Assembly: GCA_020445765.1 (NCBI GenBank)
Contig: JAGRFY010000059.1
Location: 1-37,175, forward strand
Direction of reading: 5' to 3'
DNA: 37,175 nucleotides
DNA from: Rhodocyclaceae bacterium
GTDB lineage: Bacteria > Pseudomonadota > Gammaproteobacteria > Burkholderiales > Rhodocyclaceae
Made by a program: the position numbers and the translations under genes. The notes beneath the pieces were generated by a model. That model worked only from the letters and a program-made list of their open reading frames with translations, made no database searches and had not been told where the DNA came from. Positions 2,309 through 28,361 of this stretch are shown here, piece by piece (within the stretch, counting starts at the first letter, position 1; each line of letters begins with the position of its first letter).

Positions 2309-4300
2309 TCAGCGCGGCGCTTGGCCGCGCCGGCAACGGTGAATCTGGACGTCGTCCTGCAGGCCGTAGTCCCGCAGCTTCTGGTACAGCGTGCTCTTGG
2401 CGATCGCCAGTTGGCGCGCGGCCTCGGTCAGGTTGCCGCCGCTGCTGGCGATCGCCTGGCGGATGCATTCGGACTCGGCCTCGCTCAGACGGCCCCCGTG
2501 GGCGGTGGCTGCGGTCGTATCGGACGTCGATGCGTCGTCGTCGAACTCGGGTGGCAGGTCGTGGCGACCGATCCGTCGGCCGTCGCTGACCAGGAGCATG
2601 TTCTCGACCACGTTGCGAAGCTCGCGCACGTTGCCGGGCCAGGCATAGCCGGCGAGGCTCTGGTGAACCGCCGGGTCGATGCGCGGGCACGGGACCTGGT
2701 GCCGTTGCGAGAAGTGGCCGAGGAACAGATCGGTCAGCAGGCGGATGTCGCCGTCGCGGTCGCGCAGCGCCGGGATGCGGATCGAGGTCACCGCGACGCG
2801 GTAGTAGAGATCCATCCGGAATCGGCCGTCCGCCACCTCCTGCCGCAAGTCCCGATTGGTGGCGGCGACCAGCCGAAAGTCGACCTTGCGCGGCGTGTTC
2901 TCGCCCAGTCGGTAGATTTCCCCCTTCTCGAGCACCCGCAGCAGGTGGGGCTGCAGGTCCAGCGGCATCTCGCCGATCTCGTCGAGAAACAAGGAGCCGC
3001 CGTCGGCGGCCTCGATCTTGCCGACCATGCCGCCCCGCCGTGCGCCGGTGAACGCGCCTTCGGCGTAGCCGAACAGCTCGCTCGCCAGCAGTTCCCGCGA
3101 CAGGCCGCCGCAATTCACCGGCACGAACGGGCCGCTGCCGATCGGACTGGCGCGGTGGATGCCCTGGGCGAACTCCTCCTTGCCGACGCCGGTCTCGCCG
3201 AGCAGCAGCACCGGCACCTTCGAGCGGGCCAGTTGTCCTGCCTTGCGGATCACGGCCTCGAGCTTGGCGTCGCCGGTGACGATGTGGCCGAAGCCGGGCA
3301 GCGGTTCGTCGTGCTCGTCCCGGTCGGACCTGGGCGTGCGACCGATCGACGGCAGCGGCAGGATCAGCAGCGTGCCGATGTGTTCCGCGTGTTCGATCAC
3401 CGGTGCCAGCCATTCCGGGCGCATCCACGCCGGCAGCGCGGACGGGTCGCCGTCCAGCGCCAGTGCCGGGATTCGCCTGGGCCGAGCCAGATCCAGGTCG
3501 GCACCGAGCGCGGCCAGGGCCACCTGGGCGTTGCCGTTGGCCTTGACCGGGTAGCCGCGCCGGTCGAACAGCACCACGCTGTCGGTGGTCGAGTTCCAGT
3601 ACGGAAGTGCGGATTCGACCAGGCGCAGGCGCAATTCGGTCTCGCGCATCTTGAGCCGGCTCTCGATGCGGTTGGCGGTGGTGACCACCAGCGCAAGGCT
3701 CTGCCGGTTGTAGGTCTCCGACAGACCGGAGACGTCGACGACGCCGAGAATCTCGCCATCGTTGGGATGACGGATCACCATCGCCGAGCAGGTCCAGCGC
3801 TTGATGCCGGCGCAATAGTGCTCGGCCGAGTGGATCTGCACCGGTTCGCCGACGGCGAGCGCCGTGCCGATCGCGTTGGTGCCGCAGATGCGCTCGCTCC
3901 AGGCGACGCCGGGCAGCAGGTGAATGTTCTCGGCCGAGCCACGGGTGCGGGTATCGCCTTCCATGCTGAGGATCGTGCATTGGGTGTCGGCGAGCGCCAT
4001 CACGGTGCCGGTCTCGGCCAGGAAGTCGCGCGCGCAGGCCATCACCGGCGCGCCGGCCTGCAGCAGCTCGGCGTGGGTGTTGCGCAGTGATTCGAGCCGC
4101 GATTCGCCGACCGGCGGCGGCGCGCTACGCTTGTCGGGATCCACGTTGTGGTCGCGACAGCGCTGCCACGATCCTTCGACCAGGCTGCGCAGGGCATCGT
4201 CCGGGCGGCCGCTGCCGTCCAGGAATCGCTCCCAGGCAGCCATCACGGCGGTGTCGTTGCCGGGCTCGCTGAAGCGCCGTTCGTCGGGAGTCCATGCCAT
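2309..4300 (-). CDS. acxR: Sigma-54-dependent activator of acetone carboxylase genes (AcoR/AcxR type)
   Basis: The protein has 663 residues in the AcoR-like order. An N-terminal GAF-type sensor region spans roughly residues 70-320. The AAA+ domain spans about 335-575, with Walker A GETGVGKE near residue 368, the sigma-54-contacting GAFTGA motif near 415, and Walker [14 protein letters not shown] Fis-type helix-turn-helix closes it ([19 protein letters not shown]). Such proteins bind upstream enhancers and use ATP to open sigma-54 promoters. Xanthobacter AcxR controls acetone carboxylase this way, and placement beside acxBAC supports the name. No receiver domain is present, so it is probably ligand-responsive (acetone or a derivative; inferred). 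The ATG at 4300 has GGAGGAG about 9 nt upstream. Its own 307-bp upstream spacer holds a -24/-12 promoter and two dyads, implying autoregulation. Confidence 0.9.
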
Positions 4301-4450: not shown

Positions 4451-4465
4451 GCAAGTGAAGTGCCA
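4451..4465 (-). promoter_or_regulatory. Sigma-54 (-24/-12) promoter for acxR
   Basis: Read on the minus strand, the sequence is TGGCAC-TTCAC-TTGC followed by T, an essentially perfect match to TGGCAC-N5-TTGCW with GG and GC ten bases apart. Transcription would start near 4439, giving a leader of about 140 nt before the acxR ATG at 4300. Two GTTCGA-N3-TCGAAC dyads lie 87 and 120 bp upstream of the -24 GG, a normal enhancer distance. The match and geometry are visible in the sequence; the assignment to acxR follows from strand and position. Confidence 0.85.
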
Positions 4466-4532
4466 TCGTGTCGGCGGTGATGGCCGGGAATGCGGCATGG
4501 TGGGCTCTTGCGCGCACAGGTGCGCAGGCATG

Positions 4533-4569
4533 CAGGTGGCGGCGTTCGACAATCGAACGCCGCCACCTG
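4533..4569. repeat. Perfect 17-bp inverted repeat with 3-nt loop in the ligase-acxR spacer
   Basis: The left arm CAGGTGGCGGCGTTCGA (4533-4549) and right arm TCGAACGCCGCCACCTG (4553-4569) are exact reverse complements around CAA. The inner 15 bp form the dyad GTTCGA-CAA-TCGAAC, which recurs in this spacer and upstream of acxB. It lies 38 bp past the ligase stop on the minus strand, so as RNA it could also end or protect the upstream transcript. No T-run follows on that strand, so a classical intrinsic terminator is not supported. Confidence 0.9.
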
Positions 4570-4591
4570 ATCGAACGTTCGAAATTCGAAC
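4544..4591. promoter_or_regulatory. Candidate AcxR enhancer: two GTTCGA-N3-TCGAAC dyads
   Basis: Site A1 is GTTCGA-CAA-TCGAAC (4544-4558). Site A2 is GTTCGA-AAT-TCGAAC (4577-4591). Both are perfect 6-bp dyads with a 3-bp spacer. Their centres are 33 bp apart, about three helical turns, so two dimers would sit on nearly the same DNA face. Another TCGAAC (4571-4576) abuts A2. They lie 87 and 120 bp upstream of the acxR -24 element. That AcxR is the protein that binds is an inference from the shared dyad before acxB. Confidence 0.65.
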
Positions 4592-4607
4592 GGTTTCCGG
4601 GATGCCG

Positions 4608-6593
4608 TCAAGGGCTTGCAGGCTCGGTGGCGCGACACGCGCGCAGGCCGTCCAGGGCCTCCGGGTTTTCCAGCGCGCCGAGGTCGCCGGGCGGCTGGTC
4701 GAGCCACACCGCGCGCACGACGCGGCGCAGGATCTTGCCGTTGCGAGTACGCGGCAGCGCAGCCACCGCCCGTACGCGGGCCGGCGCCAGCGGCTTGCCA
4801 AGCTTGCCCGCCACGTGGGCAATCAGCGCCCGCTCGCGGCTGGCCCAGTCCTGTGCTGCCTCGGCGGACGGTTCGGCCAGGGTCACGAAACAGCTCGCGA
4901 CCTCCCCCTTGACCGGGTCCGGCACGCCGATCGCGACCGCCTCGGCCACCAGCGGATGGTCCACCAGCGCCGACTCGTATTCGGCCGGTCCGACCCGCTT
5001 GCCGGCGATCTTCAGGGTGTCGTCGCTGCGACCCTGGATGAACCAGTGGCCTTCCGCGTCGATGCGGGCCCAGTCGCCATGAACCCAGGTATCGGGCCAG
5101 CGCGACCAGTAGCTGTCGAGGTAGCGCGCTCGGTCGCGCCAGAAGCCGTGGGCCATGCCAGGCCAGGGCGCGCGCAGCACCAGCTCGCCGACCTCGCCGG
5201 CCGGGCCGCCGATCAGCGAATCGCCGTCGGCATCGACCACGTCCGCCTGCATGCCCGGGATCGGTCCGGCGAAGCCGCAGGGCTTCTGCGGCAGGCCGGC
5301 GAAGCAGGCCAGGATGCCGCCGCCGATCTCGGTGCCGCCCGAGTAGTTGATGATCGGGCAGCGACCTTTGCCGACGGTATCGAACAGCCAATGCCAGGGA
5401 CCCTCGTTCCAGGGTTCGCCGGTCGAGCCGAAGACCCGCAGGGCGTCGAGCTGACCGGTCTGCGGCAGACCGGCCTCGCCGGCTGCCATCAAGAGCCGCG
5501 CCAGGGTCGGCGACAGGCCCAGGTGGGTCAGCCGGTGGCGCTGTGCCAGCTGCCACAGCCGGTTCGCCGTCGGGTGATCGGGTGTGCCTTCGAACAGCAC
5601 CAGCGTGGCGCCGCGCAACAGGCCGCCGAAGACCAGCCAGGGACCCATCATCCAGCCCATGTCGGTGACCCAGCAGAGGCGATCGCCAGGGTTCAGGTCG
5701 AAGGCCATCAGCAGGTCCTGGGCGGCCTTCAGCGGAAAGCCGGTGTGGGTGTGCACGACACCCTTCGGGCGGCCTGTGGTGCCCGAGGTGTAGACGATCA
5801 TCAGCGGCGTATCGGCGGCGTGGGTGGCCGTGCCGGCGGCTGGCGGGTGGGCGGCCAGCAGCCCGCGGTAGTCCCATTCGCGCCAGCGCCCGCTGCTCGC
5901 CCCGGCCCACGGCCTGCCCAGCCGGGAGACCACCAGCAGGTGCTGCAGTGCCGGCGCGGCGGCCGACGCCTTTCGGGCCTCTGCCAGCATGTCGACCGGC
6001 CGGCCGCGACGCAGGTAGCCGTCGGCGCATACCAGTACGCGGGCCTCGCTGTCCAGTAGCCGTCCGGCCACGGCGTCGGCGCCGTAGCCGGAGAACAGGG
6101 GCAGCACGATCGCGCCGAGGCGGGCGGCGGCCAGGAACAGCGCCGCGGTCTCGGGCAGCATCGGCAGGTACATCGCGATGCGGTCGCCGCGACCGATGCC
6201 CAGGGCGGCCAGCGCGGCGGCCAGCCGGCGTGCCTCGAGCGCCAGTTCGTGGTAGCTCACGCGACGCACCTCGCCGTCGTCGCCTTCCCACACCAGCGCC
6301 TCGCGGTCGGGCTCGTCGCGACCCATGCGACCCACCAGATTGTCGAACAGGTCGAGCTCGCCGCCGACGAACCAGCGCGGCCACATCGGTCCGTCGGACA
6401 GGTCGCACACGCTTCGGTAGCGGCGGCTCCAGCAAATGCCGAGGGCGTCCTCGACCTCGGCCCAGAAGCGCTGCGGTTCGTCGGCGGCGCATTGCTGCAG
6501 CGCGGCCAGGTCGGCGTGGCCATAGGCTTGCATGTAGGCCCAGAGCGCGGTGTCCTCGAAGCGCGTGCCCCGTGCCAGAGTCATCTCCGTCAT
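4608..6593 (-). CDS. AMP-forming acyl-CoA ligase, probable acetoacetyl-CoA synthetase
   Basis: The protein has 661 residues and belongs to the ANL adenylating superfamily, in the acetyl-CoA synthetase branch. Visible motifs are the phosphate loop YTSGTTGRPKG (residues 268-278), the acid/AMP-site motif NYSGGTEIGGG, the hinge region DWARIDAEGHWFIQGR with SDDTLKIAGKRV, and the C-terminal catalytic Lys620 in RTRNGK. Acetyl-CoA synthetases carry WWQTETG where this has YSGGTEIG. The latter resembles acetoacetyl-CoA synthetases (SGGTDI) and implies a pocket not closed by the acetate-limiting Trp. Directly after acetone carboxylase, whose product is acetoacetate, the likely job is acetoacetate + ATP + CoA to acetoacetyl-CoA. 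The ATG at 6593 has GGGGAG 6 nt upstream. A terminator-like hairpin separates it from acxC, so it may be expressed at a lower level or from its own promoter. Propionate or another short acid remains possible. Confidence 0.85.
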   Translation of the reverse strand: MTEMTLARGTRFEDTALWAYMQAYGHADLAALQQCAADEPQRFWAEVEDALGICWSRRYRSVCDLSDGPMWPRWFVGGELDLFDNLVGRMGRDEPDREALVWEGDDGEVRRVSYHELALEARRLAAALAALGIGRGDRIAMYLPMLPETAALFLAAARLGAIVLPLFSGYGADAVAGRLLDSEARVLVCADGYLRRGRPVDMLAEARKASAAAPALQHLLVVSRLGRPWAGASSGRWREWDYRGLLAAHPPAAGTATHAADTPLMIVYTSGTTGRPKGVVHTHTGFPLKAAQDLLMAFDLNPGDRLCWVTDMGWMMGPWLVFGGLLRGATLVLFEGTPDHPTANRLWQLAQRHRLTHLGLSPTLARLLMAAGEAGLPQTGQLDALRVFGSTGEPWNEGPWHWLFDTVGKGRCPIINYSGGTEIGGGILACFAGLPQKPCGFAGPIPGMQADVVDADGDSLIGGPAGEVGELVLRAPWPGMAHGFWRDRARYLDSYWSRWPDTWVHGDWARIDAEGHWFIQGRSDDTLKIAGKRVGPAEYESALVDHPLVAEAVAIGVPDPVKGEVASCFVTLAEPSAEAAQDWASRERALIAHVAGKLGKPLAPARVRAVAALPRTRNGKILRRVVRAVWLDQPPGDLGALENPEALDGLRACRATEPASP

Positions 6594-6614
6594 CGATTGC
6601 TCCCCACGGCAGAC

Positions 6615-6632
6615 CGGATCGGGTCCGATCCG
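6615..6632. repeat. 8-bp inverted repeat ahead of the ligase gene
   Basis: CGGATCGG-GT-CCGATCCG is a near-complete palindrome with a 2-nt centre. It lies 22 bp upstream of the ligase start codon, between that start and the terminator-like hairpin at 6643-6673. It could be a repressor operator or a short hairpin in the leader. It does not resemble the GTTCGA dyads, and no -24/-12 element is seen beside it. Confidence 0.45.
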
Positions 6633-6635
6633 CCT

Positions 6636-6673
6636 GAAAAAGCCCCGGCGGGCCTGCAGTGCGGCCGCCGGGG
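6636..6673 (-). terminator. Rho-independent terminator after acxC
   Basis: On the minus strand the arms CCCCGGCGG (6673-6665) and CCGCCGGGG (6651-6643) form a perfect 9-bp GC stem. A T5 run follows after one base (6641-6637). It begins 27 bp past the acxC stop. It should end most acxBAC transcripts and set the downstream ligase to read-through level or to an independent promoter. Confidence 0.75.
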
Positions 6674-6699
6674 AAAGGAGGGTGGTCGGTCGTGGCCGC

Positions 6700-7203
6700 T
6701 CAGGCGGCCTTCTCCGGCACCGGCAGCCCGACCCATTCCTGGTAGAAGGCCTCGATGTCGGGCTCGAAGTCGTGGATCACCGGATACCAGGGGGTCGGCG
6801 CCTCGACGTCGTGCAAGGTGCCGCAGCTCGGGCACAGGTACTCGCGATAGACCTGCCACTGGGTGTCCGGCGCCATCAGCTTGGGATAGACCTCGGTCAT
6901 CGCCTCCTCGGTGTCGCGCACGTGGATCGCAGCGTGGAGCTTCCAGTTCTCGCGGTAGTCGCAGAACTCGTGGCCACAATCGCAGATGGTCTTCCATTGC
7001 TTGCTCTTGGCCGATTGCACGATGTACAGATGCGGGCCCAGCGGAAGCACGATGCGGTCCTTGAAACCCACGCGCGACTGCAGCGCCGCCAGGTACTGCT
7101 CGAAGCGGCTGCCGTCCTTGGGCATCGACAACATGCGGAAGGTGGTTTCCCAGTCGAGCTTGCCGTCGATCAGATTCGCGACCTGTTCGTTGGTGTAAGT
7201 CAT
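6700..7203 (-). CDS. acxC: Acetone carboxylase gamma subunit
   Basis: This is the small subunit of the (alpha-beta-gamma)2 acetone carboxylase, which converts acetone and bicarbonate to acetoacetate using ATP. The protein has 167 residues, matching the family (~168). Two Cys/His-rich elements are visible: CDCGHEFCDY with following His residues near the middle, and CPSCGTLHD towards the C-terminus. They look like a zinc site, consistent with the zinc found in known acetone carboxylases. It starts with MTYTNEQVANLIDGKLDW at 7203, with AGGAG 7 nt upstream. It follows acxA by 37 bp and is the last gene before the terminator. Confidence 0.95.
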   Translation of the reverse strand: MTYTNEQVANLIDGKLDWETTFRMLSMPKDGSRFEQYLAALQSRVGFKDRIVLPLGPHLYIVQSAKSKQWKTICDCGHEFCDYRENWKLHAAIHVRDTEEAMTEVYPKLMAPDTQWQVYREYLCPSCGTLHDVEAPTPWYPVIHDFEPDIEAFYQEWVGLPVPEKAA

Positions 7204-7240
7204 TTCTTGCTCCTTGAATCAGATATTGGTGACGCCCGCT

Positions 7241-9565
7241 TCACTCTTCGACCTGGACGACGGTGGTGACGTCGGGCAGCAGCGACAGGTCCATGCGGTG
7301 CTTCGAGCCGTAGGTCGGCACGTTCAGGTCGGACTCGTTCAGTTCCCAGTCCGCCGGCAGATCCCAGAACGCCTTGAATTGCCTGGTGAACTTCTCCGAC
7401 AGCGCAAAGCTGGTGGCGAACATGTGCTGCACCTGCACCGAGGCGTGCTTGTTCAGGATGCGGTCGCGCTCCTCTTTCATCCACACGCGGGTCGGCACCG
7501 CGCGCGCCAGCCGCTCCTTGCGCATCTCGGCGCGGCGCGCCTGGGTGCTGGCGGCATCGACCGTGTAGAAGCCCTGGGCATCCCGCGTGAACACCGCGCC
7601 ATAGACCTTCTGCGCGTACTCCGGCAGCAGGAACTTCTGGTTGAGGTCGTGCTCGATCGCCTTCGGCTCCCGGTCGATCGGGTCGCCGAAACCCGGCCCG
7701 CCGCGCAGGTAGTTCAGGTAGAGGTCGTGGTTGTCGTAGCAGTCCTCGGTGGTGATGCACTGATTGTCGCGCTTGACCACCGCGGTGGCGTCGATGTGGC
7801 GCTCGTAGTCCGGACGGGAGGGATCGATGTCGCCACCCAGCGGCAGCGAGTCGCCGATCGCGATGCGGTGCTCGAGGCCGGTCTTGTGGGCCTCGAAGCG
7901 GTAGCCGGTGGCCGAGGGGTAGCCGCCCATCATGCCCCAGTCGCTGTTCATGAAGCCGTTGCCCATGAAGAACATGGTCCAGTCCTGGGCGTTCCATACC
8001 ATGCGCAGCGTCTCGAAGCCGCAGCCGCCGCGGTACTTGCCGTAGCCGCCCGAGTTGGCCTTGACATTGCGGCCCAGGTAGAGCAACGGTTCTGCCATCT
8101 CCCAGATCTCGATGTCACCCATGTCGCCTTCCGGGTTCCAGATCGCGGCGGCGTGGTTCAGGCCGTCCTTGATCGCGCAGGCGCCGGTGCCGCAGCTCGA
8201 TGCTTCGAAACTATTCACCGCGTGGATCTCGCCGTCCTGGTTGATGCCGCCGCCCTGCAGCCAGTTCGAGGTGTTGGCGTTGCCGGCGTTGACCTCCTCG
8301 AGGTAGCCGCGGCTGAAATAGGCCTGGGAGAGGCCGCGCCACAGGGCTGCCCAGCCGGAGACCAGGAAGTGCCAGGCGTAGGCGTGGCCGGTACGGCGGT
8401 CGTCCGGGTTGCACCAGGTGCCCTTGGGCAGGCGGAACTCGGTGGCGAAGTAGGCGCCGTCGTTGATGCGCTGGGTCGGTACCAGGGTCTGGCACATCAT
8501 GACCCAGATGCCGGAGGTGAAGGCCACCTGATGGGCATTGAAGGTATGCCAGCCCCAGCGGCTCGCGCCTTCGAAGTCGAGCCGCCACTTGCCGTCGGAC
8601 TTGATCGTCATCTCGCACGGCGAGTGCATGATCGAATCGAGCTTGGCGAAGGCGTTCGAGACCTGCACGTCGTCGTGCTTGTAGGGCACGTCGACGAAGG
8701 CCACCTTGCGGTACTTGCCCGGCAGCGTCATCGCCTTGATTCGGCTTTGCAGGCCACGGCGGCCCTCCTCGATGACCTCGTAGGCGAACTTCTCGTAGGC
8801 CTCGATGCCGTCGGCGCGGATCACCTCTTCGACCAGCTCTCGAATCATGTGGCAGCCGGCGATGCGGGTCTTCTCGTCGAGGATCCAGTACTTGGGCGTG
8901 CGCACCGAGCGCTGGCTCTCGTGCAGCCAGTCCCGCAGCGGCTGGTCGTTGATGCCGGTCTTGCGGCAGGTGATCATGTAGCCGTCACCGAAGCGCTGGG
9001 TCTGGCCGGTGGACATCGAGCCCGGCGTCACCGAGCCGGTGTCGATGACGTGGGTGACACCGCCGACCCAACCGATCAGCCGGCCGTCCCAGAAGATCGG
9101 CACGATGGTCGCGATGTCGCACGGGTGCACGTTGCCGATCGAGCAGTCGTTGTTCGTGAACATGTCACCGGGATTGATGCCGGGATTGGCCTCCCAGTTG
9201 TTCTCGATCATGTACTTGATCGCTGCGCCCATCGTGCCGACGTGGATGATGATGCCGGTCGAGGTCAGCACGCAGTCGCCGACCGCGTTGTAGAGCGTGA
9301 AGCAAAGCTCGCCTTCCTGTTCCACGATCGGGCTGGCGGCGATCTTCTTGGCGGTCTCCCGTGCATGCACCAGGCCGCCGCGCAGCTTCGAGAACAGCTT
9401 CTCGTAGCCGATCGGATCGGCATCGCGGAACGCCAGCGTCTCCAGGCCGTTGTAGCAGCCCGTGGCCTCGGTGCGCTCGATGATGCCGTCGCGGAACTGC
9501 TTCAGCGTCTGCCCGTTCTTCAACAGATCGGCGAAGCCGGTTTCCTTGTTGCTCAACATGTTCAT
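7241..9565 (-). CDS. acxA: Acetone carboxylase alpha subunit
   Basis: This is the large hydantoinase-B-type subunit that carries the Mn carboxylation site. Its 774 residues are close to the ~776 of the Xanthobacter enzyme. The Mn ligands described for that enzyme (His, Asp three residues on, His twenty-five after the first) have exact counterparts: His147 and Asp150 in NVHPCD, and His172 in GVTHVID. Acetyl-CoA synthesis is not involved here; the subunit receives activated acetone and carbonate from the beta subunit. The ATG at 9565 has an AGGAAAG ribosome site. An 86-bp spacer with a GC hairpin separates it from acxB. No frameshift or missing block is seen. Confidence 0.97.
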   Translation of the reverse strand: MNMLSNKETGFADLLKNGQTLKQFRDGIIERTEATGCYNGLETLAFRDADPIGYEKLFSKLRGGLVHARETAKKIAASPIVEQEGELCFTLYNAVGDCVLTSTGIIIHVGTMGAAIKYMIENNWEANPGINPGDMFTNNDCSIGNVHPCDIATIVPIFWDGRLIGWVGGVTHVIDTGSVTPGSMSTGQTQRFGDGYMITCRKTGINDQPLRDWLHESQRSVRTPKYWILDEKTRIAGCHMIRELVEEVIRADGIEAYEKFAYEVIEEGRRGLQSRIKAMTLPGKYRKVAFVDVPYKHDDVQVSNAFAKLDSIMHSPCEMTIKSDGKWRLDFEGASRWGWHTFNAHQVAFTSGIWVMMCQTLVPTQRINDGAYFATEFRLPKGTWCNPDDRRTGHAYAWHFLVSGWAALWRGLSQAYFSRGYLEEVNAGNANTSNWLQGGGINQDGEIHAVNSFEASSCGTGACAIKDGLNHAAAIWNPEGDMGDIEIWEMAEPLLYLGRNVKANSGGYGKYRGGCGFETLRMVWNAQDWTMFFMGNGFMNSDWGMMGGYPSATGYRFEAHKTGLEHRIAIGDSLPLGGDIDPSRPDYERHIDATAVVKRDNQCITTEDCYDNHDLYLNYLRGGPGFGDPIDREPKAIEHDLNQKFLLPEYAQKVYGAVFTRDAQGFYTVDAASTQARRAEMRKERLARAVPTRVWMKEERDRILNKHASVQVQHMFATSFALSEKFTRQFKAFWDLPADWELNESDLNVPTYGSKHRMDLSLLPDVTTVVQVEE

Positions 9566-9612
9566 GGTGGTCTTTCCTCAGAATGGGTGGGTCGCGAGGA
9601 CGCCCGCGCATG

Positions 9613-9640
9613 CCCCGACGGGCAGCAGGCCGTCCCGGGG
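9613..9640 (-). other. GC-rich hairpin in the acxB-acxA spacer
   Basis: The arms CCCCGACGG (9613-9621) and CCGT-CC-CGGGG (9630-9640) pair with a 2-nt bulge around an 8-nt loop. There is no T-run, so it is unlikely to terminate. It may stabilise the acxA message end or tune subunit ratio; this is inference only. Confidence 0.35.
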
Positions 9641-9651
9641 TTGGCCGTTGG

Positions 9652-11802
9652 CTAGCGGACTTCCTTGAGGTGGAACAGGCGGTGCTTGTCGACCGTCGTC
9701 TCGAAGCCGTCGGGCACGACGAAGGTGGTGGCGTCGGATTCGATGATCGCGGGACCGACGATGTGGTTGCCGGCCTTCAACGCCTCCATCTTCCACAGCG
9801 CGGCATCGACCCACTGCTTGTGGCGGTAGAACGGGCGGGTGCCCAGGTAGGCCTCCTGGGGCGGCGTCGGGCCGGCGTCGGCGTCTTCCGGCAGCACTGG
9901 TTTCTGCGTCACCACGGTGCCGCGCAGGATTGCGCCGGTGACCGAGAAACCCAGCTCCGGCGAGCGCGCCGAGCTGGCGTAGACGCGGCCGTAGGTGGTC
10001 TCGAAAGTGTCGACGATCTGGTCCCAGTCGGCCGCGGTGGCCGCACTGGGGACCGGCGAGACGATCTCGAGGTCGTTCAACTGGCCCATGTACTGCATCT
10101 TGTAGCCGGGGATCAGGATCACGTCGTCGGGCTTGTAGCCGTTGATCACGAACTCCTCGATGACCTTCACCGCCAGTTCCGACCAGGCTTCCTGCAGCGT
10201 CTTGCAGGCGGCTTCCTTGTCGGCGTCGGGGGCGAGCTGGGCGACGCCCAGGTCCACCGACTTGTCGTAGCGGTATTCGAAGTCGGCGCAGGCGCAGCCA
10301 AAGGCCGAGAAGCCCGCCGCCCAGGCCGGCACCACGACGTCCTTGAAGCCGACGCCCTCGGTGTAACCATAGGTGTGCACCGGCCCGGCGCCGCCGTACG
10401 AGAAGCAGGTGAATTCGGCCGGGTTGTAGCCCTTGGCGCTGATGTTGGCGCGCAGGTACTCGGACAGCGTCAGGTCCAGCAACTCGATCACGCCGGCCGC
10501 GGCGTCCTCGACCGACAGGCCGAGCGGATCGGCCAGCTGCACCTTGATGTGGTCGCGGGCGCGCTGGACGTCGAGCTTGACAGCGCCACCGAGGAAGTTG
10601 TCCGGGTTGAGGTAGCCCAGCACGACGTGGCAGTCGGACACCGTGACGGTGTCGAGCCCGCTTTCCGGCCAGCAGGTGCCGACGCGGTAGCCGGCAGAAT
10701 CCGGACCGAGTTTGATCGACTTGCTGTAGGGGTCGAGGCGCACGAAGCTGCCGGCGCCGGCACCCACCGAGTCCATCGCCACCAACGGCAGCGACAACAC
10801 CAGCCGCGCCATGTCCGGATCGGACTTGATGGCGAAGTTGCCCTTGGTGATCAGCGCCACGTCGAAGCTGGTGCCGCCGATGTCCGAGCAGGCGATATTC
10901 TCGTCGCCCAGGTACTCGCCCAGCATTCGCGAGCCGATGACGCCGCCAATCGGACCGGAGACGATGGTGCGTGCCAGTTCCTTGGCCTTCCAGCTGATCG
11001 TGCCGCCATGGGTGGCCATCACCCGCAGGTCGAACCTGGCGCCGTGCTTCTTGAAGCGGTCGCTGACCTTCTTCAAGGTCTGGCGCGAGGGCTCGGCGCC
11101 GTAGGCTTCCAGCACCGTGGTGTTCATGCGGTGGCTTTCCTTGCGCGAGGGGTAGTAGTCCACCGAGGCGAACACCGGGATCTCGGACTTCAGCTTGGCC
11201 AGCTCGTCGAGCACGATGTCGCGGGCCTGCTGCTCGCTGCTCTCGTTCTTGTGGGACTGCAGCAGGCAGATCACGATGGCTTCGGAGCCGGCATCGACCA
11301 GCTCGCGGGTGACCTGGCGGACCTCGTCGGCGCGCAACGGGATCACCACCTTGCCCTGCACGTCGGTGCGCTCGGTGACGCCGCGGGTGCGCGACACCGG
11401 GACCAGCGGCTCGTCGTAGCGGTGGGTGTTCAAGTGGATGCGGTCTTCCAGCGCGTAGCCGAGGTAGCTCTGCAGCGCGCGCCCCATCGAATGAATCTGC
11501 TCGAAGCCCTTGTTGCAGATCAGGCCGACCTTAAGACCCTTGCGGCTCAGCACCCGGTTCAGCATCGCGGTGCCCGAATAGACGCAGGTCGCCAGTTCCG
11601 GATAGACGTCGTCGACACCGCGAGCCCAATGAGCCAGCGCGTCCTCGGACGAGTTGAAGATGGCGAGCGATTCGTCCGCCGGGTTGCTCTGCGCCTTGCC
11701 GACCACGAAGCGGCCGTCTGCGCGCACAAAGAAGGTGTCGGTCATCGTGCCGCCGGCGTCGATGCCCATCACCTCCACGCGGGATGCGGTTTGGACTTCC
11801 AT
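9652..11802 (-). CDS. acxB: Acetone carboxylase beta subunit
   Basis: This hydantoinase-A/ASKHA-type subunit uses ATP to phosphorylate acetone and bicarbonate. Its 716 residues match the family (~717). Nucleotide-binding glycine motifs are visible: MGIDAGGTMTDTFF at the N-terminus, CSDIGGTSFDVAL in the middle and SYGGAGP later. The start is set at 11802 (MEVQTASRVEVMGIDAGG) because GGAGAC lies at good spacing upstream. An ATG at 11814 lacks a ribosome site, and longer upstream extensions would cross the sigma-54 promoter. It is the first gene of the operon, with a leader of about 53 nt from the predicted start of transcription. Confidence 0.96.
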   Translation of the reverse strand: MEVQTASRVEVMGIDAGGTMTDTFFVRADGRFVVGKAQSNPADESLAIFNSSEDALAHWARGVDDVYPELATCVYSGTAMLNRVLSRKGLKVGLICNKGFEQIHSMGRALQSYLGYALEDRIHLNTHRYDEPLVPVSRTRGVTERTDVQGKVVIPLRADEVRQVTRELVDAGSEAIVICLLQSHKNESSEQQARDIVLDELAKLKSEIPVFASVDYYPSRKESHRMNTTVLEAYGAEPSRQTLKKVSDRFKKHGARFDLRVMATHGGTISWKAKELARTIVSGPIGGVIGSRMLGEYLGDENIACSDIGGTSFDVALITKGNFAIKSDPDMARLVLSLPLVAMDSVGAGAGSFVRLDPYSKSIKLGPDSAGYRVGTCWPESGLDTVTVSDCHVVLGYLNPDNFLGGAVKLDVQRARDHIKVQLADPLGLSVEDAAAGVIELLDLTLSEYLRANISAKGYNPAEFTCFSYGGAGPVHTYGYTEGVGFKDVVVPAWAAGFSAFGCACADFEYRYDKSVDLGVAQLAPDADKEAACKTLQEAWSELAVKVIEEFVINGYKPDDVILIPGYKMQYMGQLNDLEIVSPVPSAATAADWDQIVDTFETTYGRVYASSARSPELGFSVTGAILRGTVVTQKPVLPEDADAGPTPPQEAYLGTRPFYRHKQWVDAALWKMEALKAGNHIVGPAIIESDATTFVVPDGFETTVDKHRLFHLKEVR

Positions 11803-11866
11803 GTGTGTCTCCATTGCTGTTGATCGATGGCGGTGCTCGCGAAGCGCCGCACCGGACAACCCAGCG

Positions 11867-11881
11867 CAACCGATGTGCCAT
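11867..11881 (-). promoter_or_regulatory. Sigma-54 (-24/-12) promoter for the acxBAC operon
   Basis: Minus-strand reading gives TGGCAC-ATCGG-TTGC, a perfect core match to the sigma-54 consensus. The predicted start of transcription is near 11855, 53 nt before the acxB ATG at 11802. The GTTCGG-CAA-TCGAAC dyad is 129 bp upstream of the -24 GG and an IHF-like site lies between. The same promoter type precedes acxR. Confidence 0.9.
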
Positions 11882-11900
11882 TGCGCGGATGGTGCGCAGC

Positions 11901-11913
11901 AATAACGTGATTT
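11901..11913 (-). promoter_or_regulatory. IHF-like site between enhancer and acxB promoter
   Basis: On the minus strand AATCACGTTATTG matches WATCAANNNNTTR at all but one defined position. It sits in a locally AT-rich patch of an otherwise GC-rich spacer, between the -24 element and the upstream dyad. That is where IHF usually bends DNA in sigma-54 promoters. The motif is loose, so chance is possible. Confidence 0.4.
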
Positions 11914-12001
11914 CCGTTCCCTGGAAGTAAATGCGGTCGATGCGATGGTGCGGCGAAGCATCGGCCCGCAAAGCCGGACGACGACCAGAAACACGATGGA
12001 C

Positions 12002-12016
12002 GTTCGGCAATCGAAC
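12002..12016. promoter_or_regulatory. Candidate AcxR enhancer upstream of acxB
   Basis: GTTCGG-CAA-TCGAAC matches the A1 dyad near acxR except for one base. The similarity extends beyond the dyad: CGTTCGxCAATCGAACGCCG is shared by 12001-12020 and 4543-4562. A weaker relative, GCTCGG-CGA-TCGGAA (12054-12068), lies 52 bp further upstream, about five helical turns. Together with the promoter at 11867-11881 this fills the acxB side of the 680-bp spacer 11803-12482. Confidence 0.6.
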
Positions 12017-12407
12017 GCCGCGGCTGTCTTGGTTGCACACCCGGCGGTGCAGCGCTCGGCGATCGGAATTCATGCCAGACCGCGATCAGCTTGCGGCTCG
12101 TCCGGAACGTCCCGGTGGCGTGGGCCAGGGGCCTCGGTGTGCCGCAACCGGGGGCTCGGCGACGAGGCGACGCCGGGGGCGACGGTGCGGCGGAGGATCG
12201 GGGCCGTGAGCGACCGGGAGTGAAATGGCTGCCGGCGCCGGGTCCCTCGTTACGGCTCGGCGGCAGGCCGCGTCGAAAAGCCTGCGTCAGCCATGGCCGG
12301 CGCGATCGGGCACCTGCGCGCGCGCCTCGGTGCGCGCTGGCGGTCTCGCCCGAACGGGGTCCGGTCGCGCCTGGGGCGACACCGATTCGCATTCCATCAG
12401 CTCATGT

Positions 12408-12446
12408 GACGTGACCCGGAAGTCGCTTGAGCCGCGTGGTCACGTC
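12408..12446. promoter_or_regulatory. 9-bp inverted repeat, candidate operator of the CmcJ-like gene
   Basis: GACGTGACC (12408-12416) and GGTCACGTC (12438-12446) are perfect reverse complements with centres 30 bp apart, about three helical turns. The right arm ends 36 bp before the ATG at 12483. The spacing fits a dimer or tetramer of a regulator better than an RNA hairpin. The nearest regulator is the LysR protein at 14062-14976. The rest of 12080-12400 shows no gene or motif I can support. Confidence 0.45.
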
Positions 12447-12482
12447 GCGTCCAATCAGGTTCAGCAACCAGTGGAGCCACGC

Positions 12483-13364
12483 ATGAATGCCAACACCGCA
12501 CGAGCTTTGCGCCGGAGTCCTGCCAATCCGACCGGCGGGCTGCCCGTCGTCGCCGGGCTCAACTACCTCGTACCGACCGGCGAGCGGCCGTTCAGCTATG
12601 CCTGCGAGCCGCCTGCCGGAGCGCCTTGGGAAAGCGGTCGATACGAACTCAGGCAAATGGCCATCGCCGATGCGCGATCCGGCGCGCCGAGTCCAGCGAT
12701 CGATGTCGAAGGCTTCGAGCTGTGGGAGGCGCCGACGGTCGTCCGCGACTTCTTCGATCCGGAAGAGGTCAGGGCCACCTATTATGCGGAGGCAACCGAA
12801 CTCGCGCTGGCGGTCACTGGTGCGCAGCGTGCCCATGTCTTCGACCACCTCGTGCGCAGGCGCGAGCGCGACCGCGCCCCGGTTTCGTTCGGGCGCAAGC
12901 CGGCCGCCGGGCCGCCCGCCGTCAATGGCCGCATCCATAGCGACTACACCGAAGCGTCGGGTCGGCGGCGGCTGGCCATGGTGCTGTCCGACGCCCTGGC
13001 CGCGGCCAGGGTCGAGCGCTATGCCATCATCAACATCTGGCGTTCGATCAAGGGGCCGGTCCGCGATACGCCGCTGGCGGTCTGCGACGCACGGTCGGTG
13101 GCGGCATCCGATCTGGTGGAGAGCGAAGTGCGCTACCCGCGCCGGACCGGCGAGATCTACCATGCCCGACACTCACCGCGGCACCGGTGGTCGTACTTTT
13201 CCGGGATGGACCGCCACGAAGCGCTGATCTTCAAGCAGTACGACTCCCGCACTTGCGGCGTGGCCCGCTTCGTTCTGCACACCGCGTTCGACCTGCCGCA
13301 GATTCCCGCTGACGCGCCGCTGCGCGAGAGCATCGAGCTGCGCTGTCTCGTGATCTACGATTGA
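12483..13364 (+). CDS. CmcJ/NvfI-family oxidoreductase (2OG/Fe-dioxygenase-like)
   Basis: The protein has 293 residues. Its C-terminal half has the conserved pattern of the CmcJ-like family, named after the cephamycin 7-alpha-methoxylation partner. The pattern is HSDYT (His152, Asp154), then NIWRSIKGPVRDTPLAVCD, then HRWSYFSGMDRHEALIFKQYDS, VLHTAFD (His266) and RESIELRCLV. His152/Asp154/His266 would make a plausible Fe facial triad; this is my inference, since chemistry is known for few members. The ATG at 12483 has GTGGAG 6 nt upstream. The isomerase gene follows after 12 bp, so the two form an operon. The substrate cannot be told from sequence. An aromatic or natural-product-like compound is suggested by the partner gene. 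Confidence 0.75.
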   Translation: MNANTARALRRSPANPTGGLPVVAGLNYLVPTGERPFSYACEPPAGAPWESGRYELRQMAIADARSGAPSPAIDVEGFELWEAPTVVRDFFDPEEVRATYYAEATELALAVTGAQRAHVFDHLVRRRERDRAPVSFGRKPAAGPPAVNGRIHSDYTEASGRRRLAMVLSDALAAARVERYAIINIWRSIKGPVRDTPLAVCDARSVAASDLVESEVRYPRRTGEIYHARHSPRHRWSYFSGMDRHEALIFKQYDSRTCGVARFVLHTAFDLPQIPADAPLRESIELRCLVIYD

Positions 13365-15599: not shown

Positions 15600-17273
15600 A
15601 TGCCGATGCAGTCCAATTTCGAAGGCAGTCAGGCCCTCTACCGGACGCTTTGGGATCTGGTGCCGGACGCGGTCGTCGTCGTCGACTCCGATCAGCTCAT
15701 CCGTTTCGCGAATCCGGCGGTTTGGGAGACCTTCGGCCATCAGCCGGACGATCTCGTCGGGAAACCCCTGGCGATGCTGCAGCCCGAACGACTGCGAGCA
15801 GCCCATCGGGATGGATTCAGCCGATACATCGCCTCCCATGCGCGCAGCCTCGACTGGCGCCGGGTGGAACTGACCGCACTGCACGCGAATGGTCGCGAGA
15901 TTCCGGTCGAACTCTCGTTCGCCGAACTTCAACTGGACGACAGTCACTGGTTCGTCGGCATCTTCCGCGACGTTACCGAGCGAAAGACGCACGAAGCCGC
16001 GCTGCTGCACAGCGCGAACTATGACAGTCTGACCGGCCTTCCCAATCGGAGCCTGCTCTTCGATCGCTTCGACAAGGCGCTCGCCAGTGCGAAACGCCAC
16101 GGCCGCCGGCTTGGCGTGCTGTACATCGATCTGGACAACTTCAAGGTCATCAACGATACGCTGGGCCACGATAGCGGCGACCTGTTGCTGTGCCAGGCAG
16201 CGGAACGAATTCAAGCCTGCGTGCGCGATGGCGATACGGTCGCCCGCACCGGAGGGGACGAATTCGTCGTGCTTCTCGCCGAGGTCGGGCAGCCGTCGGA
16301 TCTCGCACGGATCGCCGACCGGATGCTGAAGTCCATGCGACTGCCGTTCCAGATCGGAGAGGCCAAGGGATTCTCGGGCGCGAGCATCGGCAGTTGCCTG
16401 TTTCCGGAGGACGGCGCATCCCGGACCGAATTGCTGCGGCGGGCCGATCTGGCGATGTACAAGGCCAAGGAGAAGGGCCGAAATCGGGTCCAGCACTACA
16501 GCGAAAAGCTGCAGGAACAGATCCGGTCACGGATGGCGATCGAGCAGGCCCTGAGAATGGCGATCGAACGCGGGGAGCTGCAGTTGCATTACCAGCCCCA
16601 GGTCGACCTGGGGTCGGGACGCATCGTGGCAGCCGAGGCCTTGCTCCGCTGGCACAATGCCGAACTGGGTGCGGTGGCGCCGGATAGATTCATCCCGATC
16701 GCGGAAAATACCGGCATGATCGTAGCCATCGGCGCCTGGGTGATCGAACGCGCATGCCTCGATCTGGCGCAGTGGCGTCAGCGATCCGGCGCCAGGCACT
16801 GCAGGATCGCGATCAACCTGTCGCCGCGACAGTTCGAGCAGGACGCCCTGCAAAAGGTCATCGACGCCGCCATCGAACGCCATGGCGTCCCGGCGTCGGC
16901 GCTGGAGTTCGAGATCACGGAAAGTCACCTGATGGCCGACCCGAACCATATCTCGAGCGTCCTGCACGACCTGCGCGATGCCGGCTGCACGATCGCACTC
17001 GACGATTTCGGCACGGGCTATTCGAGCCTTTCCTACCTCAGAAATCTACCGCTGGACTGTCTCAAGATCGACAAGTCACTGGTCATGGACGTCTCGATTC
17101 TCGTCGCTGTCATCCAGCTTGCCCGAAGCTTCCGTCTCAAGACGATTGCCGAAGGCGTGGAGGACGAGCACCTTGCCACACTGCTCCGCGAGCTTGGTTG
17201 CGACATGGCTCAGGGATACCACTTCGCGCGCCCGATGCCGCTGTCCAGATTGATGGCACTCGAAATCAAGTGA
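15600..17273 (+). CDS. PAS-GGDEF-EAL cyclic-di-GMP turnover protein
   Basis: The protein has 557 residues and no membrane segment, so it is cytoplasmic. A PAS domain spans residues ~10-130 (LVPDAVVVVDSDQLIRFAN to VGIFRDVTERK). A GGDEF domain spans ~135-300 with intact TGGDEF and, upstream, an RDGD product-inhibition site (RxxD). An EAL domain spans ~315-557 with EALLRW, INLSPRQF, EITES, DDFGTGYSS, KIDKS and AEGVE, so the metal-binding set is complete. Both cyclase and phosphodiesterase activity are therefore possible, tuned by whatever the PAS senses. The segment between KIDK and AEGVE is 24 residues, 6 shorter than in the second EAL protein of this window. The start is ATG 15600; ATG 15606 is an alternative. 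No clear ribosome site is seen. Confidence 0.95.
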   Translation: MPMQSNFEGSQALYRTLWDLVPDAVVVVDSDQLIRFANPAVWETFGHQPDDLVGKPLAMLQPERLRAAHRDGFSRYIASHARSLDWRRVELTALHANGREIPVELSFAELQLDDSHWFVGIFRDVTERKTHEAALLHSANYDSLTGLPNRSLLFDRFDKALASAKRHGRRLGVLYIDLDNFKVINDTLGHDSGDLLLCQAAERIQACVRDGDTVARTGGDEFVVLLAEVGQPSDLARIADRMLKSMRLPFQIGEAKGFSGASIGSCLFPEDGASRTELLRRADLAMYKAKEKGRNRVQHYSEKLQEQIRSRMAIEQALRMAIERGELQLHYQPQVDLGSGRIVAAEALLRWHNAELGAVAPDRFIPIAENTGMIVAIGAWVIERACLDLAQWRQRSGARHCRIAINLSPRQFEQDALQKVIDAAIERHGVPASALEFEITESHLMADPNHISSVLHDLRDAGCTIALDDFGTGYSSLSYLRNLPLDCLKIDKSLVMDVSILVAVIQLARSFRLKTIAEGVEDEHLATLLRELGCDMAQGYHFARPMPLSRLMALEIK

Positions 17274-25579: not shown

Positions 25580-25808
25580 CGTCGTTCTCCGCCGCCGGCG
25601 GCGGCTCCTCCCACTATAGTCTGCCGCCGGCCCGGCCCGGCCGAGCCACCGCCCGTGCCCAGACTGGTCGCATGGCTGTCGCGCCCGAACTGGGCGATTG
25701 TCGTCCTCGCCCCGAGAAATATCACGATCGTCGTAGTGTGGCGTTTGTGGCTTTGTGTAACGCGAGGGACAATGCGTGTCATTGGCATGGCTCCGGGCCT
25801 CATTGTCG

Positions 25809-28361
25809 ATGGCACGACGTCGTATCTTCCTGCAGGACTGGTGGACCGAAATCTTCGACCGCTTCGCCCATTCCTATCTGGTCTGGGCGATGGTGGCGGT
25901 GATCCTCGGCCTTGGCGCGCTGAACATCCGCGAGGTCGTCGCCGACTATGCCAAGCGCGAGTCGGCGATGCTCGCCGATCATCAGGCGCTGCTGCTGGAA
26001 CGCAAGCGGGAGGAGCTCGAGGACGTCTTCCGCGCGCTGTACGAAAGCACGCGCACGATCGCGCTGATCCCGGCGATCCGTGCCGTGGAAGGCGGCAACC
26101 GGCGCAGTGCGCTGGTGCACGTCGAACGGCAGGGCCGACTGTCGCTGGACATCCACCAGACCGTGCAGCAGATCTACCGCAACCTCTACCGCAACATTCG
26201 GGTCTCCGAAATCTATTACGTGCTGGACGGCTTCCGCCCCGATCTCGGCGAGGTGCCGTTCTTCATGTATGACGAGTTGATCAGCGCCGACGGCGATATC
26301 GGTCCGACCGGCGCGCACGATCTCGAGTCTGAGGAACAGGAGTACGACCACTACCTGCGCCAGCTAGACTGGTTCCGCGAACGCTATCCACTCTGGCTGT
26401 TCGACGACAATATCGACGGCATTCCGGCCGTGTTGTCGCCGCCGCTGCAGACCTGCGATCTCAGCCAGCTCGACGCCAGCGGACAGCCGGACCCGCGCGA
26501 CGCCGAGGGCCTGCTCTATTCGGTGCCGGTCTACGGTGCATCGGATGGACACTTCAAGGGCTTGATCTCGGCCGTGCTGAGGGCGAACGTGCTGGAAGCC
26601 CTGATCATCGGCGTGCCGCATCTGATCGTCACCGCGGCGGATGCAGTCAGCGCCCGTCGCCTGGGGTTTGCGATGCCCGAGGCCGCCGCGAGCTTCGTCC
26701 TGCGCCATGCCGGCTACGGCATCGAGATCTTCGATCGCCGCAACCGTCTTCTCGCCGGCGGCCTCGACGCGGCCCGGCAACGGGGCGACGGCGGCCGTTG
26801 GGCCGAGATCCGTCTGCGCGGGCGGACCGACGGCGAACTGACGCTGCACCACTATCTTTCGCCGCAGACCATCGCGGACCTGGCCGGGCCACTGCGTGGC
26901 GAGCGTGACCGGGCGGTGGTGGCGCGAGTGCTGCTGTTGCTCGGCCTGATGGCGGTCTTCTGGCGGTCGATCCGCGATCAGCGCCACCATCACGCCGAGC
27001 TGGTCAGGCTGGCCCATTTCGACAGCCTGACCGATCTTCCCAATCGCCGGCTGTTCATGCAGCGTCTCGAACAGTCGCTGGCCCGGGCTCGCCGCCACCG
27101 CAGCCGGCTTGGCCTGATGTTCCTCGATGTCGACAATTTCGGCAGCATCAACGACGCGATCGGCCACGACAGTGGCGACGCGCTGCTGGTGGCGGTCGCC
27201 GCGCGTCTGCGTGAGACCTTGCGCGGTGGCGACGAAGTCGGCCTGGGCGCCGCTTCGCGCGACGAGCGCACGACGCTGGCACGGCTTTCGGGCGACGATT
27301 TCACGCTGATCTTCGAGGATCTCGCCCGTGCCGAAGACGTCGGGGTGGTTGCCGAACGATTGATCGACGCGTTTCGCGAGCCGCTGGTGCTCGGCGGCGA
27401 AGCGGTCGAGGTGACGCTGAGCGCAGGCGTCGCCGTCTTCCCGGACGATGCCGGCAACGGCAACGATCTGATGATCTGTGCCGAACAGGCGCAGCGCCAT
27501 GCCAGTGCCACCGGCGCCTGCCAGTACCACGTCTTCAACGACCAAATGCGCCGCCGGACCGAGCGCCGCAACGCGCTCGTGCGCGAGCTGCCCCAGGCGG
27601 TGCGAGCGCATCAGTTCAGCCTGGCCTACCAACCCAAGCTGGCACTGCAGTCGGGCCGGATCGCGTCGTTCGAGGCCTTGCTGCGCTGGCACAGCCCGGT
27701 GCTCGGCGAGGTGTCGCCGGCCGAATTCGTGCCCTTGCTCGAGCGCAGCGGGCAGATCGTCGAAGTCGGTCGCTGGATACTGGATACGGCGTGCCGGCAA
27801 CTGCGGCAGTGGCAGCGCCAGGGGCACGCCGACCTGCGCATCAGCGTCAATGTGTCGGCGCGCCAACTGCTGCTCTCCGACGTGGTGGCCGCGGTCGACG
27901 AGGTGCTCACCGAGACCGGCCTGGTGGCGAATACGCTGACCCTGGAGATCACCGAATCTATGGTGATCGACAATCTGCAGGACGGGCGCCGCCTGCTCGA
28001 GCGGCTGCGGGGGCTCGGCGTGCGTCTCGCGATCGACGATTTCGGCACCGGCTACAGCTCACTGACCTATCTGCAGAGCCTGCCGGTCGATTGCCTCAAA
28101 CTCGACAAGACCATGATCGATACGGTGCTGGACGCCCGGGGTGCCCACGTCGTGCGCTCGACCATTGCACTCGCCCATGGTCTCGGGCTCGAACTGGTCG
28201 CCGAAGGGGTCGAGGAGGCGGCGCAACTCGAGGTGCTCGCCGGCATGGCCTGCGATATGGTGCAGGGCTTTTATCTTTCCCGTCCGCTCGATGGCGAGGC
28301 TGCCGGCCGCTTTCTGGCGGAACATGCCGGCCGGCGCGCCCGACAGCATGCGGTGTCGTGA
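25809..28361 (+). CDS. Membrane GGDEF-EAL protein with periplasmic sensor, degenerate SGDDF
   Basis: The protein has about 850 residues. A transmembrane helix at ~25-45 (YLVWAMVAVILGLGALNI) is followed by a ~330-residue periplasmic region, a second helix (VVARVLLLLGLMAVFW) near 380, then GGDEF (~405-570) and EAL (~590-850). The signature reads SGDDF instead of GGDEF and no RxxD inhibitory site is evident. A 10-15 residue insertion (EVGLGAASRDERTT) precedes it, so the cyclase half may only bind GTP. The EAL half is complete: EALLRW, INVSARQL, EITES, DDFGTGYSS, KLDKT, AEGVEE, QGFYLSRP. It is therefore a likely c-di-GMP phosphodiesterase controlled by an external signal. The start at 25809 (MARRRIFLQDWWTEIF) is by hydrophobic topology; in-frame GTG/TTG codons from 25776 are possible. 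Confidence 0.93.
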   Translation: MARRRIFLQDWWTEIFDRFAHSYLVWAMVAVILGLGALNIREVVADYAKRESAMLADHQALLLERKREELEDVFRALYESTRTIALIPAIRAVEGGNRRSALVHVERQGRLSLDIHQTVQQIYRNLYRNIRVSEIYYVLDGFRPDLGEVPFFMYDELISADGDIGPTGAHDLESEEQEYDHYLRQLDWFRERYPLWLFDDNIDGIPAVLSPPLQTCDLSQLDASGQPDPRDAEGLLYSVPVYGASDGHFKGLISAVLRANVLEALIIGVPHLIVTAADAVSARRLGFAMPEAAASFVLRHAGYGIEIFDRRNRLLAGGLDAARQRGDGGRWAEIRLRGRTDGELTLHHYLSPQTIADLAGPLRGERDRAVVARVLLLLGLMAVFWRSIRDQRHHHAELVRLAHFDSLTDLPNRRLFMQRLEQSLARARRHRSRLGLMFLDVDNFGSINDAIGHDSGDALLVAVAARLRETLRGGDEVGLGAASRDERTTLARLSGDDFTLIFEDLARAEDVGVVAERLIDAFREPLVLGGEAVEVTLSAGVAVFPDDAGNGNDLMICAEQAQRHASATGACQYHVFNDQMRRRTERRNALVRELPQAVRAHQFSLAYQPKLALQSGRIASFEALLRWHSPVLGEVSPAEFVPLLERSGQIVEVGRWILDTACRQLRQWQRQGHADLRISVNVSARQLLLSDVVAAVDEVLTETGLVANTLTLEITESMVIDNLQDGRRLLERLRGLGVRLAIDDFGTGYSSLTYLQSLPVDCLKLDKTMIDTVLDARGAHVVRSTIALAHGLGLELVAEGVEEAAQLEVLAGMACDMVQGFYLSRPLDGEAAGRFLAEHAGRRARQHAVS

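Follow-up and report, generated by a model that had tools for sequence, protein, structure and literature searches.

In a 37,175-nucleotide contig from a Rhodocyclaceae bacterium (JAGRFY010000059.1 of assembly GCA_020445765.1, positions 1 to 37,175, hereafter the window), copies of a palindromic element, GTTCGA-N3-TCGAAC, are located upstream of the two sigma-54 promoters that precede the acetone carboxylase genes acxABC and the regulator gene acxR. Comparison of sequences indicates that these dyads are very probably enhancer sites, or upstream activating sequences (UAS), to which AcxR dimers would bind to activate both acxABC, with its adjoining ligase gene, and acxR. The consensus in the loci compared is (C/T)GTYCGR-N3-YCGRAC(G/A), with N3 mostly A+T-rich. 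AcxR proteins with an AKSTLY recognition helix appear typically to be accompanied by CGTYCGA-N3-TCGRACG upstream of acxR, and those encoded by a divergent acxR, mostly with an S-R-S-T-L-Y-V helix, by TGTCCGG-N3-CCGGACA. An earlier note on this DNA had proposed the exact word GTTCGA-N3-TCGAAC as the motif of AcxR. Enrichment of the dyad was borne out, whereas the exact word had to give way to a broader one, GTYCGR-N3-YCGRAC, in front of which C or T mostly stands, depending on regulator type. The dyad is also not exclusive to AcxR, because the same genome has it at a paralog of AcxR whose neighbours are acetophenone-carboxylase-like genes, and other genomes have it at regulators beside Baeyer-Villiger monooxygenase-type genes.

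The three good copies of the dyad previously described in the window comprise two exact ones and one with a single mismatch; the other 23 window matches listed have two or three mismatches. At up to three mismatches, the window contains 26 matches against a shuffle mean of 19, with 6 of 100 shuffles reaching 26; this total is little different from chance, and just the good copies are therefore exceptional. The two TGGCAC-N5-TTGC promoters, of acxA and acxR, are the sole perfect copies in the window and have the correct GG/GC spacing. Distances between dyads and promoters, given in the earlier note as 87, 120 and 129 bp, were measured from dyad centre to -24 as 86, 119 and 129 bp, that is, within 1 bp. 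The block shared between 4543-4562 and 12001-12020 is indeed identical at 19 of 20 bases, and the two acxR dyads lie 33 bp apart, about three helical turns. The window sites thus have the features of a UAS, in that they are palindromic, lie upstream at these distances and include a pair. In the 4.84-Mb source assembly (210 contigs, 94% complete), five copies of GTTCGRNNNTCGAAC are present. Three are the window dyads and one other sits within a long open frame; the backward-pattern control had none. The fully exact dyad is present solely at the two places beside acxR. The degenerate form GTYCGRNNNYCGRAC (GTYCGR-N3-YCGRAC) is found at 14 places versus 19 for its backward control, and because this form alone is not enriched genome-wide, specificity is attributed to the extended form together with promoter context. 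Among the 11 other exact degenerate matches in this genome, only C90:24648 lies beside a regulator that resembles AcxR, with a sigma-54-like site containing one mismatch.

Relatives were collected by an AcxB scan, of which the best 80 of 292 were used, plus three further stretches and the window; L090 repeats L037, and L043 and L061 are identical in their upstream stretches. The loci were grouped by the position of acxR: downstream in the same direction (G1, 34 loci, AcxR 51-79% identical, the window itself excluded), divergent (G2, 29 loci, AcxR 43-46% identical), upstream in tandem (G3, 5 loci), one other arrangement (G4), and no acxR in the stretch (G0, 15 loci). Unsupervised counting of dyads in G1 acxR regions returned GTTCG-N5-CGAAC in 11 of 34 and GTCCG-N5-CGGAC in 9 of 34 (maximum for any word in five shuffles, 5), and in G2 acxA regions GTCCG-N5-CGGAC in 23 of 29 (maximum, 2). 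GTTCGA-N3-TCGAAC as such was rejected as the family motif, with no match at divergent-acxR loci even with two mismatches. At up to one mismatch, GTYCGR-N3-YCGRAC was found upstream of acxA at 29/29 G2 (27 distinct), 23/33 G1, 3/5 G3 and 6/11 G0 loci, and upstream of acxR at 29/34 G1 loci, one of these (L010) probably by chance; loci whose contig ends before the upstream region were omitted, so that acxA was counted in 33 of 34 G1 and 11 of 15 G0 loci. Shuffle means for these counts were 0.1 to 0.9, and the remaining 1.58 Mb of the loci contained 56 matches. The enrichment upstream of acx genes in relatives, which the earlier note had proposed to look for, is accordingly strong. A match at acxA or acxR was present in 34/34 G1 loci, L010 included, and three similarity-reduced sets had a match in 11/11, 10/12 (L010 included) and 16/21. 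With the exception of L092, the relatives have sigma-54-like sites (at most two mismatches) upstream of acxA.

Further sampling demonstrated that acx is rare, being found in 2 of 398 and 5 of 369 genomes, our own included. From the out-of-sample set of seven non-own acxA-like genes, three of the four at 66-70% identity had an exact dyad upstream, one of these three lacking a sigma-54-like site. Neither dyad nor sigma-54-like site was present at the remaining one of the four or at the three genes of 45-49% identity. Among plasmid loci, 16 of 27 matches were examined. In Cupriavidus metallidurans CH34, an exact dyad precedes the sigma-54-like site of acxA by 140 bp, and in Paraburkholderia phymatum exact dyads precede the sigma-54-like sites of acxA and acxR by 133 bp and 68 bp, respectively. 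Upstream of acxA, Ancylobacter has an exact and Acidibrevibacterium a one-mismatch dyad, each 85 bp before a sigma-54-like site.

The strict forms are concentrated at acx throughout whole genomes. TGTCCGG-N3-CCGGACA occurs at 18 places in 26 G2 genomes (backward control, 3), 17 of them at acx, with 16 assigned by sequence and one by coordinates (L049 genome, 0.9 kb from such a site); the remaining place (L105) adjoins another GAF-AAA regulator. CGTYCGA-N3-TCGRACG occurs at 27 places in 33 G1 genomes (backward control, 11), 21 of them in acx loci: 18 in upstream stretches by sequence, 1 by coordinates (L083) and 2 upstream of acxA (L075, L079). Of the others, 2 are beside AcxR-like regulators (L141, L145) and 4 elsewhere. 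The sites at the Paraburkholderia loci L079 (5442) and L075 (3917) are additional ones upstream of acxA; that of L079 adjoins a second GAF-AAA-HTH_8 regulator gene, with a nearby sigma-54-like site in reverse orientation only. Three Burkholderia genomes (L142, L143, L144) have a very similar palindrome, TTCGTCCGA-N3-TCGGACGAA, at about 5.1-5.3 kb, and no AcxR-like regulator was found beside it in the two neighbouring frames searched (L142).

AcxR of the window has GAF, AAA+ and HTH_8 domains (PF01590, PF00158 and PF02954), with the motifs GETGVGK at 368, GAFTGA at 415 and IAKSTLY at 633. In the G1, G3 and G4 rows the recognition helix is AKSTLY, and in G2 it is mostly ISRSTLYV. Among exact sites, the half site is correspondingly preceded by C in 86-100% of cases in G1 and by T in 84-89% in G2. 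AcoR-type enhancer-binding proteins, presumably including those for acetoin, alkane monooxygenase and similar functions, have the same three domains; their helices, mostly RNTLYRK, RNTIYRK or STLYRK, are unlike that of AcxR. At least seven long AcoR-type regulators are encoded in our own genome, and the ones with AKSTLY are AcxR and a 56% identical paralog, both with dyads plus an upstream sigma-54-like site; the five others, with different helices, have one exact dyad, one weak match and in three cases none. A recount by helix, leaving out 22 loci without a GAF-side match, found a match upstream of 13 of 25 AcxR-type regulators (6 exact, window included) versus 2 of 40 others (1 exact, 1 with one mismatch). 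In all four Aromatoleum genomes, acxR is located outside the 22-kb acx stretches, and its promoter has a sigma-54-like site and a pair of dyads spaced by 32 bp, which are exact in L223 and have a single mismatch each in L224-L226; a site is also present at acxA in all four (3 exact, 1 with a mismatch).

The positions of the dyads are regular as well. Measured from dyad centre to -24, 11 of 27 G1 acxA matches (window included) lie at 128-131 bp and 34 of 54 G1 acxR matches at 79-119 bp, and most G2 acxA dyad centres at 134-143 and 107-111 bp. Paired dyads have a spacing of 32-33 bp in 12 cases at G1 acxR promoters and of 29-30 bp in 9 cases at G2 acxA promoters, about three helical turns in either group. 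A site resembling that of integration host factor (IHF), with at most one mismatch, lies between dyad and acxA promoter in 9/23 G1 (window included) and 23/29 G2 loci, compared with 2.8% and 9.7%, respectively, of single-base shuffles, and at acxR promoters in 1/28. This layout, with dyad enhancers about 80-140 bp upstream and an IHF-like site in between at many acxA promoters, resembles the UAS-IHF-promoter architecture of the NifA/NtrC type, although the operator words differ from the acx dyad, the NifA UAS being TGT-N10-ACA. As a mechanism, AcxR may sense acetone or a metabolite via its GAF domain, assemble, presumably into a hexamer, from dyads that in many cases form pairs on the same face of the helix, and contact RNA polymerase-sigma-54 at -24/-12 by DNA looping, as would be expected from its family; at the acxA promoter, IHF may assist looping from the intervening site. 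AcxR would thereby turn on acxABC and the ligase gene as well as acxR itself, which would generate positive feedback where acxR is downstream.

Several observations weigh against AcxR as the activator at these dyads or against a strict form of its specificity. Relatedness inflates the raw counts, and the similarity-reduced sets agree with them. The link between base and helix is imperfect, with G more frequent than A at the sixth position of G1 acxA sites. In our own genome, an exact dyad but no sigma-54-like site accompanies the regulator at C53:53713 (TRTTLYRK helix); this dyad (C53:53363), upstream of an AcoR-type regulator, is probably due to chance and still counts against strict specificity. 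No match was found for 12 of the 25 AcxR-type regulators in the 650 bp scanned, although their site may lie at acxA instead, and 10 of 33 G1 acxA regions had none at up to one mismatch. The acxR match of L010, the closest AcxB relative, is not taken as support because it overlaps promoter-like sequence. L018, L027, L059 and L060, which represent one sublineage with a similar helix, have sigma-54-like acxA promoters and an AKSTLY-type regulator in the genome, and no clear dyad; L060 has a single one-mismatch copy, and L027, L059 and L060 have repeated GTCCG half sites in common. Methylorubrum extorquens CM4, an acetone user, shows two-mismatch forms at best. Other spacings also occur at G1 acxR promoters, namely 15 bp in 8 cases and 19 bp in 3.

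It is also conceivable, with low probability, that the acxR-side dyads are mainly a terminator or 3'-end RNA hairpin of the acxABC-ligase operon and that their likeness to the acxA side is secondary. The proximal dyad forms the core of a long perfect inverted repeat just after the ligase stop codon, whose RNA would fold very strongly (z -6.0). In the Burkholderia loci L080, L083, L087 and L089 the corresponding dyad forms a stem of 12 bp with TTTCTTTT or TTTGTTTT directly behind it, a T-tailed, intrinsic-terminator-like arrangement. However, the hairpin of the window genome has no T tract, stems of at least 8 pairs are formed by only 7 exact G1 acxR dyads, and matches lie also upstream of acxA (23/33 G1 and 29/29 G2), where no acx operon ends. 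Moreover, a bare terminator is not expected to preserve the GTYCGR letters or the 32-33 bp pairing. The terminator was therefore rejected as the sole explanation, because of the missing T tract in the window and the sites at acxA. In the four Burkholderia loci the dyad may act as terminator and enhancer alike; for the window, such a dual function is unproved.

A shared regulator other than AcxR might also bind the dyad, which we regard as similarly improbable. We infer AcxR binding from its association with the dyad, nearly half of the AcxR-type regulators had no match in the stretch scanned, and NifA affects acx expression in P. phymatum nodules according to the available part of PMC8305402. 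Nevertheless, no TGT-N10-ACA or TGT-N11-ACA word is present at 4466-4610 or 11881-12225, so that NifA-type sites were discarded as candidates there. Both AKSTLY paralogs of our own genome have dyads with a sigma-54-like site, as against 2 of 40 regulators with other helices, and in Aromatoleum the site marks acxA and also an acxR located outside the acx stretch. Finally, functionless similarity caused by common ancestry of adjacent DNA and by palindromes arising by chance in G+C-rich sequence, suggested by the many close relatives among the loci and by the 14 versus 19 places of the degenerate pattern, is hardly credible given the reduced sets, shuffle means below 1, the concentration of strict forms at acx and the regular positions and spacing. 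These data suggest that binding of AcxR to the dyads as enhancer sites accounts best for the observations.

The kind of system, a sigma-54 activator with a UAS, is already known, and the motif strings are new to the literature searched, where six exact motif strings gave no match. No AcxR operator was found in that literature; the 2002 work on Xanthobacter autotrophicus may contain one. In the parts of these papers available, control of the acetone carboxylase genes of X. autotrophicus by sigma-54 and AcxR is cited (PMC2244623), TGGCATGNNNNTTGC is placed between acxR and acxA (PMC2864759), deletion of acxR abolished the enzyme in C. metallidurans (PMC11886801), acxABC and a downstream sigma-54 regulator rose together in P. 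phymatum nifA nodules (PMC8305402), and activators of the AcoR type are described as working at a distance on sigma-54 promoters, through sites upstream of them and frequently together with IHF (PMC8899819). From gene order, the P. phymatum plasmid locus scanned here appears to be the locus of PMC8305402. The AcxR systems of X. autotrophicus Py2 and C. metallidurans CH34 have the same regulator family and sigma-54 promoter type as the window; in contrast to them, the acxR of the window follows acxABC and is preceded by a sigma-54 promoter and predicted operators of its own.

The features of the window locus are listed in the table below. The genes run on the minus strand in the order acxA-acxB-acxC, ligase, acxR; the promoter that the earlier note had assigned to "acxBAC" is retained, with this gene order in place of the former. 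The acxA start was placed at 11802 because a ribosome-binding site is present there. A divergent gene for a CmcJ/NvfI-family oxidoreductase (12225-13364) adjoins acxA, and two GGDEF-EAL proteins are encoded elsewhere in the window (15600-17273 and 25776-28361).

Features of the acx locus in the window, with operators and promoters as predicted from sequence
Feature	Coordinates	Strand	Remarks
acxR, GAF - AAA+ (GAFTGA) - HTH_8 sigma-54 activator	2309..4300	-	
Putative sigma-54 promoter of acxR, TGGCACTTCACTTGC	4451..4465	-	perfect TGGCAC-N5-TTGC
Perfect inverted repeat, 37 bp, 17-bp arms, centred on proximal operator	4533..4569		38 bp after ligase stop codon
Proximal predicted AcxR operator of acxR promoter, GTTCGATTGTCGAAC (minus strand)	4544..4558		exact dyad; centre 86 bp upstream of -24
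Distal predicted AcxR operator of acxR promoter, GTTCGAATTTCGAAC (minus strand)	4577..4591		exact dyad; centre 119 bp upstream of -24
Acetyl-CoA-synthetase-like AMP-forming ligase, between acxC and acxR	4608..6593	-	scores under NCBIfam cut-offs
acxC, acetone carboxylase gamma subunit	6700..7203	-	PF08882
acxB, Hydantoinase_B type subunit	7241..9565	-	
acxA, Hydantoinase_A type subunit of acetone carboxylase	9652..11802	-	probable start 11802
Putative sigma-54 promoter of acxABC, TGGCACATCGGTTGC	11866..11880	-	perfect TGGCAC-N5-TTGC
IHF-like site AATCACGTTATTG, between UAS and acxA promoter	11900..11912	-	1 mismatch to IHF consensus WATCARNNNNTTR
Predicted AcxR operator (UAS) of acxABC promoter, GTTCGATTGCCGAAC (minus strand)	12002..12016		one mismatch; centre 129 bp upstream of -24

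The dyad is also associated with other putative ketone routes. On contig C90 of our own genome (L140, 7231-9663), a second, acetophenone-carboxylase-like cluster has the 56% AcxR paralog, GTCCGA dyads and a sigma-54-like promoter; the paralog gene lies between an AMP-ligase-like gene and acetophenone carboxylase subunit-like genes, which score under curated cut-offs. Beijerinckia indica and Bradyrhizobium sp. 186 each encode an AcxR-like regulator that has an AKST helix, together with a serine hydrolase and a protein annotated as a flavin adenine dinucleotide (FAD)-dependent oxidoreductase. Beijerinckia has an exact dyad 126 bp upstream of a two-mismatch sigma-54-like promoter before the oxidoreductase gene, and Bradyrhizobium a one-mismatch dyad 74 bp upstream of a sigma-54-like site; the Bradyrhizobium oxidoreductase matches phenylacetone, steroid and cyclohexanone monooxygenases. 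These AcxR-type dyads before FAD-dependent oxidoreductase genes are located at about 12336 in L255 and 3715 in L256, and the Baeyer-Villiger monooxygenase type is evident for L256 alone. In the examined plasmid loci with a regulator helix ending in YRK or YRR, several of them beside monooxygenase genes, no exact dyad was found, and some had one-mismatch matches. We tentatively suggest, with slightly less than even confidence, that GTYCGR-N3-YCGRAC may be a common operator of a ketone-responsive AcoR-type branch serving three routes, tuned by C or T and by K or R, and that its acxR copy doubles as a terminator in some lineages.

A candidate AcxR operator is now available, and it lets AcxR regulons be found by sequence. 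The recognition helices found in nature, with their candidate half sites, form a series in which the specificity of HTH_8 activators may be studied, and the sites are possible parts for acetone or ketone biosensors. The likeness between the acx and apc-type operators within one genome also raises the question of cross-talk. If the common operator proposed above is real, acetone carboxylase, acetophenone-type carboxylase and Baeyer-Villiger monooxygenase would be ketone routes sharing it, and specificity would depend on whether C or T precedes the half site and on a K/R exchange in the recognition helix; in some lineages, one DNA palindrome would end one transcript and switch on the next.

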